NCBI GenBank assembly: GCA_021772015.1
Contig: JAETNS010000003.1
Coordinates: 62,001 to 126,000, forward strand
Direction of reading: 5' to 3'
DNA from: Prevotellaceae bacterium
Lineage (GTDB): Bacteria; Bacteroidota; Bacteroidia; Bacteroidales; Muribaculaceae
Length of the DNA stretch: 64,000 nucleotides
The notes below the pieces were generated by a model. That model was not told where the DNA came from and ran no database searches. It saw nothing but the letters and a program-made list of their open reading frames with translations. Position 1 is the first letter of the stretch. Every line of letters begins with the position of its first letter. Of this stretch, positions 31,681-36,430 are shown piece after piece. The translations under genes and the position numbers were made by a program.

Positions 31681-32637
31681 TCAGGTGAAGAGGTCGCGCA
31701 GGCGGTTGCCGACCTTTTTGTGGAGGGGGAGAGCGTTGTCAGGGGCGACACGGTTGATTTCCGGACCGGGGACATCTATCTGGCATGTCGGCCTGGCAGG
31801 CTCGGGGATTGATGGCCTGACAGGCTCGATTTCTTCATTCGGGGTCATCTCGCCTACAGCGGAGGCCTGACGCGGGGCATCGGCTACTCTGACGATGATG
31901 GCCGTGTTGTTGTCGGATGAGTCCTTGCTGACATTGGCCAGGGCGGCGAGCTTCTCCTCATCAGTGATCGCGGCCGAGAAGAGGTCTGTCAGGTATTGGT
32001 CATCGATCTGATGGACTACACCGTCGGTACACAACAGGAAGTAGTCGCCCGGCTCGATGTCAGTAAGCATGATGACATCCGCGGCTGAAGGCTCCGCTCC
32101 CGGTTCGGCGTAGCTCATGCAACGGGTGATGACATTCCCTTTCGGATGGTTGATAGCCTCCTCCGGCGTGAGATTGCCGGCATGGACCAGCACATTGACC
32201 AGGGAATGGTCGCTGGTGCGGTAGAGTATTCCGACCTTGGGCCTGATCTGGTAGACCCGCGAGTCTCCCATATGGGCCACGATGGCATTGTCTGCGTTGA
32301 AATGGAGGAACGTCAGGGTCGTGGCCATGTCGGAGCCACGTTCACCGATGGCTTTAAGCAGCCGGTGATAGGCGAAGCTGATCGCATCACGGAAAGAACG
32401 CTGGGTGAACTCATAGGCGGGATTGGCATAGCCTGCCATGAAATCTGCGAATGCCTTGCAGACGGTCAGGGAAGCCACAGCTCCGTCGGCCTCGCCACCA
32501 ACTCCGTCGCAGACTAAGAATGTACGCGCTCCGGGAGGAGGAAAATCCTGGTCGGGAAACCGGGCATCCTGTTGTTCGTGACGCGTCCCGCGTTGGCAGA
32601 ATGACAGCGCGGGAGCGGGAATGATATAGTCAGACAT
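31681..32637 (-). CDS. PP2C-family serine/threonine phosphatase
   Basis: FLVCDGVGGEADG, HMGDSRVYQI, FLLCTDGVVHQI, SSDNNTAIIV metal-binding motifs retained; Pro-rich C-terminal tail. Confidence 0.92.
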   Translation of the reverse strand: MSDYIIPAPALSFCQRGTRHEQQDARFPDQDFPPPGARTFLVCDGVGGEADGAVASLTVCKAFADFMAGYANPAYEFTQRSFRDAISFAYHRLLKAIGERGSDMATTLTFLHFNADNAIVAHMGDSRVYQIRPKVGILYRTSDHSLVNVLVHAGNLTPEEAINHPKGNVITRCMSYAEPGAEPSAADVIMLTDIEPGDYFLLCTDGVVHQIDDQYLTDLFSAAITDEEKLAALANVSKDSSDNNTAIIVRVADAPRQASAVGEMTPNEEIEPVRPSIPEPARPTCQIDVPGPEINRVAPDNALPLHKKVGNRLRDLFT

Positions 32638-32688
32638 CGTTTTCAGGGGTGTTTATTCAAATGTGTGGGCAGCTCCGGGGGGTGGCGG

Positions 32689-33456
32689 TCATACATCCTT
32701 GTCAAACCGGAACTGGGTCTTGCCAAGTATTATACTGTCGCCGAAATTCAGCGCGAAATCCTCTCCCGGCATAAGCGGCTCATGGTTGACAAGCACCGGG
32801 TTTGTGGCGCGAAGCACGCGGAGCTGGAACATGTAACCGTTTACATCGCTGTGTTCCACCCGTATGTCGATCGACCGACGGCTCATCGAGGGATCATCAG
32901 AGATGGATATGTCGCTGTTGCCTGACGGATCGGAGTCATAGCGGCCTACGATATTAGATCCGGGATTCAGTTTGAATTCCTTGTTGAACCAACCCCGACG
33001 CAACATTGTCAGTTTTCCTCTGAATGCCTGATACTCTCCCGGTTTGATATATTTGGTCTTATCGCGGGCCTGATATATCGTACGTCCCTTGCATGTGGGA
33101 CACTGAAACATGTTCTGGCCAACCTGCAACGGGATTTCCCGATGGACATAGCCGCATCCGAACGCGCATGGTATGCTCATCATCGCCCCTTTAAGGAAAT
33201 CCCCTTTTGTCTCCTTGGGTTGCTGGAACATGTTGTTGGGGACAGGAGGGGAGGGGGGAGAAGGGGGCGTTGGAGGAGTTGGGGGTACCGGAGGCTGTGG
33301 TCCGGGGAAGTTAGTATCCTGGACGACCAACGGGATTTTGGTGCCGCAACGAGGGCATGTCAGCTTGTATCTGCCGGGCTTGTCGGGGCGTTTCACTCCG
33401 ACAATATGCTGGCATAAAGGGTTAGGACATCGTAGTTTGACTATCTGTTGTGACAT
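32689..33456 (-). CDS. Zinc-ribbon / Pro-rich linker / FHA domain protein
   Basis: CPNPLC...CPRC and CAFGC...CPTC zinc ribbons; PPVPPTPPTPPSPPSPPVP linker; FHA-like NIVGRYDSDPSGNSDISISDDPSMSRRSIDIRVE. Confidence 0.85.
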   Translation of the reverse strand: MSQQIVKLRCPNPLCQHIVGVKRPDKPGRYKLTCPRCGTKIPLVVQDTNFPGPQPPVPPTPPTPPSPPSPPVPNNMFQQPKETKGDFLKGAMMSIPCAFGCGYVHREIPLQVGQNMFQCPTCKGRTIYQARDKTKYIKPGEYQAFRGKLTMLRRGWFNKEFKLNPGSNIVGRYDSDPSGNSDISISDDPSMSRRSIDIRVEHSDVNGYMFQLRVLRATNPVLVNHEPLMPGEDFALNFGDSIILGKTQFRFDKDV

Positions 33457-33520
33457 ATTAGGCTACAGGGTGAGGCTGTTGTCTGGCAATCAGGGTATGG
33501 CAGTTAAGATATCGGGAAAA

Positions 33521-34471
33521 TCAAACCTCGATTATGTCATCAAGGTAATCATCGCCCAGTGTCTCTTCGAAATGTTCGGTCTCGGCCTCGCTCTGGGCAA
33601 GGTATCCCTCACCTTGCGCCATGTTTTCGGCGTCTGAGACAGTCAGGCCGTACTGGGAGGCATCATCGACGAAATATCCGTCAGGGGTCTCGATCTTGTC
33701 GAAAAGCCCGTCATTGTCGATGTCGATCATGACAAGGTCGTAACCTGTGTCGGTCGAGAAGCTGGCGTGTACCTCCTCGTCTCCGTCGACAGTGTATACA
33801 GTCTCGACTCCGTTGAAAGAGAAGATATCATCAGCGTCGATATCCTCCGGGTCTATCTCCTCCTGGGCTATCAGGGAGTCTGCGATAGAGTCAATGTCTT
33901 CAGGATCATCTATATCTTCCGGCTCGAACGGATCGATCGGTTCGGGGTCAGGATCCGGCTCCGGATCGGGGATGGGATCAGGATCAGGTTCAGGATCGGG
34001 AATCGGGTCCGGATCGGGAATATTATCGGTAGAGGGAGCCGGAGGGGTCTGTCCTCCGCCGGTATTGCCGGGAGATGTGCTGCCGGAGTTGCCTGACGGA
34101 GATGTCGGTTGTTCCGGCTGCGGGTCAGGATGGCCTGCCTCCGAGACAAGCTGGCTGGCCGCGTCGACAATCTGGTCATCAAGGGAAATCTCCTCTTCTG
34201 TCCCGTCGAGCATGGTCATGGCTGCTGCGGTGGTCCCTCCGGCGACCGCAGCTGCCCCGACGGCAACGGCAACTTTCTTGCCTGTGTCATTGCCTGCGGT
34301 CTGCGGTGCCGGACGCTGGCCGTTCATGGGCGGGTTCGCCTGGCGGTAGCGAGGCGCGGGAGGAGGAGGCACGGGGGCTCCGGCGGGAGGGGTGACGGGA
34401 GTGGCAGGGATCGTTGTCTGGTTGTTGAGCTGCTGTTCCGCCTGTGGAGAGTTGAGATTGATGGTATCCAT
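33521..34471 (-). CDS. Acidic low-complexity protein (Pro-rich N-terminus, Ala/Gly hydrophobic segment, PDPDPIPDPE repeats, acidic tail)
   Basis: Open frame between the caspase and FHA genes; AVAVGAAAVAGGTTAAAMTML segment; C-terminal DDYLDDIIEV. Confidence 0.75.
   Translation of the reverse strand: MDTINLNSPQAEQQLNNQTTIPATPVTPPAGAPVPPPPAPRYRQANPPMNGQRPAPQTAGNDTGKKVAVAVGAAAVAGGTTAAAMTMLDGTEEEISLDDQIVDAASQLVSEAGHPDPQPEQPTSPSGNSGSTSPGNTGGGQTPPAPSTDNIPDPDPIPDPEPDPDPIPDPEPDPDPEPIDPFEPEDIDDPEDIDSIADSLIAQEEIDPEDIDADDIFSFNGVETVYTVDGDEEVHASFSTDTGYDLVMIDIDNDGLFDKIETPDGYFVDDASQYGLTVSDAENMAQGEGYLAQSEAETEHFEETLGDDYLDDIIEV
33940..34022. repeat. In-frame hexanucleotide-periodic tandem repeat encoding Asp-Pro repeats
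   Basis: Degenerate GGATCx/GGGTCx hexamers; protein PDPDPIPDPEPDPDPIPDPEPDPDPEP. Confidence 0.8.
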
Positions 34472-35306: not shown

Positions 35307-35350
35307 GTCTGTGTTTGTGGATGTCTTATTGGTTGATGCTTATGGTATTG

Positions 35351-35998
35351 TCAGCCCTTGGCCTTGCATAAGGGGCATACGCGGTTGTTGACCGCTGTCT
35401 CGCTGATCGGAGAGAAGCATTTGGGACACACCAGGATCGCTTTTTTCTTTTCAGCGAGGGCCTTTAGATGTTTCTGGTCGGGAGCGGGCAGCAGGGCGGT
35501 CACTGCTCCCGAGATCGCAGCGGGGGCGAATCCGGCGGGAGACTTCATTACCGCCGCATAGGCCAGAAGCCCTAAGGTAATGACTCCGCTGGCAGCGCGT
35601 ATGGTCTTGATCTTCTTCGCCTTTTTCTCGTTAATGGCCTCAAGGGCGGCTTGTTCTTGCTGCAGAGCGCGCAGCCGGTGGTGAAGCAGATCGAACTCAT
35701 AGGAGAAATTGTCGGGGGCGATGATGCGGTTGGCGAAAAACGTGAAGCTGTTGTGGCCGCCGCAACCGAGTCTGATGATAGAGTCGCGGTCGATCATCTT
35801 TTTCTGGATTCTTCTGAACTCACCGTTCACATCCTGTACAAAAGTCCCATTGCCGTGAGGCCCTTTGATGTCCTCTATAAACCAGTTCCCGTTGTCATCG
35901 ACAGTGAAAAGGGCGTGCTGGTGGCTTACGGCCTCGCATGTGCCGGGAATGGTGAAAGGTTGCTGGCCATTCCGGCCGATGATTATCTCATATGGCAT
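35351..35998 (-). CDS. FHA-domain protein with hydrophobic segment and C-terminal zinc ribbon
   Basis: IIIGRNGQQPF...VSHQHALFTV...GPHGNGTFV; hydrophobic ASGVITLGLLAYAAV; CPKC...CPLC. Confidence 0.88.
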   Translation of the reverse strand: MPYEIIIGRNGQQPFTIPGTCEAVSHQHALFTVDDNGNWFIEDIKGPHGNGTFVQDVNGEFRRIQKKMIDRDSIIRLGCGGHNSFTFFANRIIAPDNFSYEFDLLHHRLRALQQEQAALEAINEKKAKKIKTIRAASGVITLGLLAYAAVMKSPAGFAPAAISGAVTALLPAPDQKHLKALAEKKKAILVCPKCFSPISETAVNNRVCPLCKAKG

Positions 35999-36022
35999 GA
36001 CGGATAGCAGGTCTGACGTTTG

Positions 36023-36430
36023 TTATTGATGATTTGTGCCTTTTTCGTTGGCTGTCTGGCGCGGCGCGGCCGAGTATGAGGAGGCGATCTCCTCTTTTAG
36101 GGCTTTGAGCAACGGCTTGGGGACGGTCAGACCGAACAGATGGTTGTCGTAGTCGCCAAGATAGAGCTTTTGCTTTGGCACGGATATTGTGATGATAAGC
36201 CGTTTGTTGACAATAAGGCTTCGGCCCAGACGCAGGAAGGAGCTTTTGAGGCCGGCAGGAGTGGCGGCGCGGATCACAGCCTCGATTTTCGACAGCCCTA
36301 AAGTCAGCAACTGTTTCTGACCGCTGAGGTATGTCAGCTGAGTGTAATTTCCGTTGGCCTGGAAATATGCCACCTTGTCGAGGTCGAGGATTATGAGCTC
36401 GTCGCGTGAGTTGAGACAAATTTTAGCCAT
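36023..36430 (-). CDS. Stand-alone LytTR-type DNA-binding protein
   Basis: DLDKVAYFQANGNYTQLTYLSGQKQLLTLGLSKIEAV...SSFLRLGRSLIVNKRLI; no receiver domain. Confidence 0.85.
   Translation of the reverse strand: MAKICLNSRDELIILDLDKVAYFQANGNYTQLTYLSGQKQLLTLGLSKIEAVIRAATPAGLKSSFLRLGRSLIVNKRLIITISVPKQKLYLGDYDNHLFGLTVPKPLLKALKEEIASSYSAAPRQTANEKGTNHQ

Follow-up and report, generated by a model that had tools for sequence, protein, structure and literature searches.

What would a bacterium do with two phosphothreonine readers and a phosphatase encoded around an exported caspase, if the kinase that should supply the phosphates is missing? The question is raised by six consecutive minus-strand genes at positions 31681-36430 of the window, by which we mean the whole 64,000-nucleotide stretch analysed here (Prevotellaceae bacterium, GenBank assembly GCA_021772015.1, contig JAETNS010000003.1, positions 62,001 to 126,000). 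In order, they encode a LytTR regulator, a first FHA protein (FHA1), an exported caspase, a membrane-anchored acidic protein that we call the adaptor, a second FHA protein (FHA2) and a PP2C phosphatase, and are separated by gaps of 24, 44, 115, 64 and 51 bp. An earlier note, made from the sequence alone, described them as an island without a kinase that seems to couple phospho-signalling to a periplasmic protease and was not recognised as a named system. All six open reading frames are confirmed, five of the six proteins have Pfam support, no Hanks kinase lies within the window, and we found no matching described system. The six genes are, however, the 5’ half of a conserved, apparently unnamed Bacteroidota operon made from known parts, and a kinase is normally included. 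Thus, the earlier interpretation stands in part: its central idea of coupling is supported, as is its view of the set as unnamed, whereas the kinase-free headline applies to the window and to neither the module nor the genome.

Gene maps around the FHA genes reveal the order LytTR-FHA1-caspase-adaptor-FHA2-PP2C in several genera. FHA2 was found in 19 and FHA1 in 13 of 100 genomes surveyed in the family, and an order-wide FHA1 profile search produced matches in 21 of 199 genomes, although these mostly span the FHA domain alone and are not counted as islands. Scanning GTDB species genomes with a caspase profile recovered 80 loci, most with the same gene set. About 60 loci share the families in the same or near-same order (locus counts are slightly inflated, as two contigs sit in both locus sets, L060/L081 and L064/L086), and these span Muribaculaceae, Prevotellaceae, Bacteroidaceae, Cytophagales and Saprospirales. 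Carriers include Phocaeicola coprophilus (L093) and Bacteroides caecigallinarum (L112) of the Bacteroidaceae, as well as Spirosoma (L149/L154), Persicitalea (L143), Runella (L145), Dyadobacter (L135), Ferruginibacter (L117) and a member of the Saprospiraceae (L141). The commonest neighbour pairs noted among 64 island loci are FHA2-PP2C (46), LytTR-FHA1 (35) and PP2C-kinase (33). The co-occurrence that the earlier note proposed to look for is therefore present in many related genomes, with a gene order that recurs far more than chance would allow. We rejected the possibility that the genes are coincidental neighbours, given the conserved gene order. LytTR is mainly a Bacteroidales addition, and the Cytophagales core consists of FHA1, an adaptor-like protein, FHA2, PP2C, caspase and kinase.

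Some islands are more elaborate. In L065 (G019:C86) a second adaptor and kinase set is inserted mid-island, suggesting internal duplication of the operon. Bacteroides-type islands (L101, L102, L103, L110, L112 and L119) encode two further exported proteins between adaptor copies, a BspA-type leucine-rich one of ~354 amino acids and a small one of ~129 amino acids.

So, where is the kinase? Where an island locus extends 2.5 kb or more beyond PP2C, a Hanks kinase is encoded in the island or within 6 kb of it in 42 of 45 cases (about 40 of 43 distinct contigs), most often immediately 3’ of PP2C. The C-terminal parts of these kinases include Sel1, FGE-sulfatase and cyclophilin-like domains, and exported companion proteins occur alongside kinases in 33 loci. 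Searches of the window’s own genome (G000) returned six kinase matches, among them an island-class Hanks kinase on contig C15 (L053:7987-9537) that has the catalytic motifs and a membrane helix. It is followed by three exported genes. This quartet is unlinked to the island; in other genera (L079, L080 and L082), the four corresponding genes come immediately after PP2C and keep this order. In a tree of kinase domains, the C15 kinase falls inside a 21-row clade of island kinases (support 100/100) and groups with those of L079 and L080 (97/92). Because the quartet matches the genes that follow PP2C elsewhere and its kinase nests among island kinases, the operon of the window’s organism is split, with its 3’ half relocated to C15, rather than kinase-free.

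The earlier note had also suggested seeking a kinase whose presence tracks the island, and this largely bore out. Of the 14 genus genomes compared, four of the five island carriers and none of the nine others encode a C15-type kinase (E<1e-90; p=5/1001). The quartet occupies the same syntenic site in G104 and G000, and G064 and G103 have the quartet plus an island-adjacent kinase. The exception is G098, a close relative that has lost the quartet: it keeps all six island genes while the quartet was found neither at the syntenic site, where three unrelated genes lie instead, nor elsewhere. The remaining kinases of G098 are two others and counterparts of a cluster that G000 encodes on contig C28 (L056:5048-16567). 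This second phospho-signalling cluster is without a caspase and comprises two Hanks kinases (one fused to FHA), an FHA protein, a PP2C, an FHA-trypsin fusion and zinc-ribbon-FHA proteins. It has counterparts in G098 (C42) and G104 (C17) and was not detected in G082, which has no island.

The acidic protein had been labelled low-complexity, and it indeed has no Pfam match, but the label overlooked a conserved threonine, a membrane segment and an ordered C-terminal domain. The N-terminus reads Met-x-Thr (Thr3) in 15 of 18 adaptors as compared with 93 of 934 background proteins (p=1.6e-12, a generous value given that the 18 sequences are related). In other lineages, motifs such as NEETRL, EDTIYD and EETVYD are found at the N-terminus. 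A Gly/Ala-rich membrane segment near residues 67-85 is followed by an exported, acidic, Pro-rich linker, and the predicted topology is N-in/C-out because Lys plus Arg make up 15.4% of residues before the segment and 1.1% after it. At about residues 218-285 there is a conserved beta-domain with a DIDNDG motif, the sole confidently modelled part. A fold search of the model against the PDB gave no significant match (best E 0.53), and the adaptor profile retrieved from PDB sequences only low-complexity chance matches. The protein is probably a phospho-adaptor that spans the membrane.

The caspase carries its catalytic dyad, His98 and Cys135, within a C14 domain, and neither residue varies across 17 relatives. 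A signal peptide is present, and a simple test of hydrophobicity detects one in 76 of 79 relatives, so the earlier description of an exported, intact enzyme holds. In metacaspases and paracaspases that prefer Arg/Lys, the residue at position -2 from the catalytic Cys is Asp. As Asp occupies this position in 79 of 86 of the caspases here, the pocket looks Arg/Lys-specific. The exported part of the window’s adaptor contains one Lys and no Arg, and given the apparent specificity, a role as a cleavage-resistant regulator is more likely for the adaptor than one as a caspase substrate.

Both FHA proteins have zinc ribbons in differing architectures, as first noted. In FHA1, one CxxC pair is C-terminal (C191/194/208/211), and in FHA2, two pairs are N-terminal (C10/15/34/37 and 97/101/119/122). 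Alignment indicates that FHA1 retains GR, SxxH and NG, and its hydrophobic segment reaches at least 1.6 in 57 of 61 relatives. FHA2 retains GR, SRR and TN, with the SxxH His replaced by Ser in the window’s lineage and present in L067/L069. Judged by these residues, and aside from that His in FHA2, both would qualify as bacterial FHA phosphothreonine readers. The phosphatase matches a solved PP2C structure at 8.2e-23 and the NF033484 model at 1.5e-40, yet the latter is under the cut-off.

How might these parts work together? We lean towards a model in which a kinase/PP2C/FHA switch controls the periplasmic caspase via the acidic adaptor, with the kinase acting in trans from C15 in the window’s organism. 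The membrane kinase would use its C-terminus, which is extracytoplasmic and variable (Sel1, FGE-sulfatase, cyclophilin-like or other domains), to sense a signal, and would phosphorylate threonines in the cytoplasmic N-terminus of the adaptor (Thr3 in the window’s lineage, the [DE]-T-[RIV]-[LY] threonine elsewhere), and probably itself. The membrane-bound, zinc-ribbon FHA1 and the zinc-ribbon FHA2 would bind these phosphothreonines and cluster the complex, and PP2C would reset the switch. Clustering may then act across the membrane on the exported acidic beta-domain of the adaptor to gate the caspase, with LytTR setting operon expression. The pathway may end in a response to envelope stress, in cell killing or in defence. 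More tentatively, we suggest that such a system is widespread in Bacteroidota: a transmembrane adaptor, phosphorylated on a threonine near its start and recognised by a pair of zinc-ribbon FHA proteins, would turn a periplasmic caspase on or off, even where the kinase is encoded elsewhere.

Several points weigh against the proposed switch. FHA2 in the window is without the usual SxxH His. The adaptors may have Thr3 in common because their N-termini are related by descent, and not because it is phosphorylated. The exported domain of the adaptor, as modelled, is without a recognisable fold, and its membrane segment is by sequence just moderately hydrophobic. Furthermore, the island may have kinase partners besides that of C15, because G098 has the island without the quartet and has only other kinases.

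If true, the model describes a pathway, widespread in Bacteroidota, that runs from a bacterial kinase across the inner membrane to a caspase. Most bacterial caspase homologues have no known function, and the operon would provide a defined pathway with a testable phosphosite and a testable protease output. A 2012 survey left 70 of 217 caspase operons without an assigned function (PMC3501461). The carriers of this kinase/phosphatase/reader/caspase operon include common gut bacteria, and the predicted partner kinase on C15 would be missed by annotating the window alone.

Could the module instead be a conflict or defence system, in which kinase signalling unleashes the periplasmic caspase, so that the cell dies or is arrested when a phage attacks or a competitor makes contact? 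The distribution is patchy (13 of 100 family genomes and 5 of 14 genus genomes). In G082, which lacks the island, dnaK adjoins an aminotransferase gene (L203), so the six genes are a clean insertion between the two in the G000/G098 clade; in G104 the sequence stops at a contig edge. The nonsynonymous divergence (dN) of island genes is about four times that of flanking genes, the kinases are multiplied and their sensor domains varied, and caspases and kinases are frequent conflict-system parts (PMC7159879). However, PADLOC yielded no system match beyond generic caspase (1.6e-15) and PDC-M21C PP2C (1.8e-9) models, FHA1 has no match among phage or plasmid records, and the operon is rich in exported Sel1/BspA-like envelope proteins, not toxins or nucleases. 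We therefore regard defence as somewhat unlikely, though it is the strongest competitor.

An envelope maturation role, in which the caspase processes the operon’s own exported proteins (adaptor, Sel1, MORN-like, quartet) and phospho-signalling sets only the level, seems improbable. It would fit the companions that accompany kinases in those 33 loci and the predicted extracytoplasmic location of caspase, adaptor and companions alike, but the exported adaptor, nearly devoid of Lys and Arg, would be a poor substrate. That the island in this clade is a decaying, kinase-less remnant is very improbable and largely refuted by purifying selection: neither G000 nor G098 has an island-adjacent kinase and G098 is without the quartet, but dN relative to synonymous divergence (dN/dS) against G098 is 0.066-0.149 (rough values, as synonymous sites are near saturation), there are no frameshifts, all catalytic residues are kept, and the quartet is retained at the same syntenic site in G000 and G104.

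The features of the island are listed in the table. A pattern scan found the sole clear promoter upstream of LytTR, with a TAnnTTTG box, which we take to be the Bacteroidota-type -7 consensus; AAATATTTTTnnTAACTTTGG is kept in this region in two other genomes of the genus. Because the conserved box and a TTG element precede LytTR, a single transcript from LytTR through PP2C is likely.

Table. Features of the six-gene island and its predicted promoter (positions in the window; E-values are for Pfam matches).
Feature	Position	Strand	Evidence
-33 element TTG	36530-36532	-	pairs with -7 box 36503..36510
Promoter box	36503..36510	-	TAACTTTG, Bacteroidota-type -7 box (TAnnTTTG), 5’ of LytTR
LytTR, stand-alone DNA-binding regulator, 135 aa, first gene	36023..36430	-	PF04397 4.5e-6
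FHA1, 215 aa: N-terminal FHA, membrane segment, C-terminal zinc ribbon	35351..35998	-	PF00498 9.2e-9
Exported caspase-like protease, 239 aa, His98/Cys135	34587..35306	-	PF00656 Peptidase_C14 8.8e-21
Acidic membrane adaptor, 316 aa	33521..34471	-	no Pfam match
FHA2, 255 aa: two N-terminal zinc ribbons, C-terminal FHA	32689..33456	-	PF00498 3.1e-5
PP2C phosphatase, 318 aa, metal-binding motifs intact	31681..32637	-	PF13672 (PP2C_2) 8.7e-12

Elsewhere in the window, 28246-28848 encodes a small P-loop protein of 200 amino acids with a Zeta-toxin Pfam match (3.7e-8), and 37934-39094 encodes an exported protein with a weak BACON domain that adjoins the aminotransferase gene; G098 and G082 have similar-looking genes in this position. 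Scanning the window for Rfam families and tRNAs gave no matches.

How does the island compare with known systems? A search of openly accessible papers (subscription journals were outside its scope) found no description of this gene set, the nearest literature being a conflict-system survey (PMC7159879) and the caspase survey cited above (PMC3501461), and PADLOC and NCBIfam profiles gave no system-level match to the six proteins. In the kinase-kinase-phosphatase (KKP) module of Pf prophages, too, Ser/Thr kinases form a single switch with a phosphatase, but the module is prophage-borne, and its abstract describes kinases and a phosphatase and mentions no caspase (PMC11341870). The EACC1-caspase two-gene system (PMC7159879) also joins a membrane-linked partner to a caspase, but the island caspase scores 55.6 bits with NF047832, whose cut-off is 140, the partner here is a Gly/Ala acidic adaptor, and a phospho-switch is added. 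TerY-P triads and related kinase/PP2C/vWA conflict linkages (PMC7159879) likewise place a zinc-ribbon kinase beside PP2C, but the triad requires vWA and has no FHA pair, and no vWA match occurs among the six island proteins. Reading the sequence of contig C16 of G000 (L055:5415-11241), we noted a separate TerY-P-like set, unlinked to the island, of a zinc-ribbon protein, a vWA protein, a PP2C-like protein and a kinase whose C-terminus bears a zinc ribbon.

Two further likenesses are to phosphothreonine pathways. ArnA of Sulfolobus, an FHA domain linked to a zinc-binding domain, reads out threonine kinases, and ArnA/ArnB are under kinase and PP2C control. ArnA is the best solved relative of FHA1 (5a8i, 2.4e-12), but ArnB is a vWA protein, whereas the island is without vWA and has a caspase and an acidic adaptor. 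In the threonine pathway of type VI secretion, the Hanks kinase PpkA, the PP2C PppA and the reader Fha1 are encoded together as a reversible switch. FHA1 scores 13.3 bits against the TIGR03354 TagH cut-off of 120.25, and so is not of the TagH/Fha1 type, and no type VI structural genes occur among the annotated neighbours examined, with no genome-wide search made. The kinase/PP2C/FHA logic is nevertheless shared, and the island phosphatase resembles PppA (6jkv, 1.5e-21); what sets the island apart is its two zinc-ribbon FHA proteins, its caspase and its membrane adaptor.

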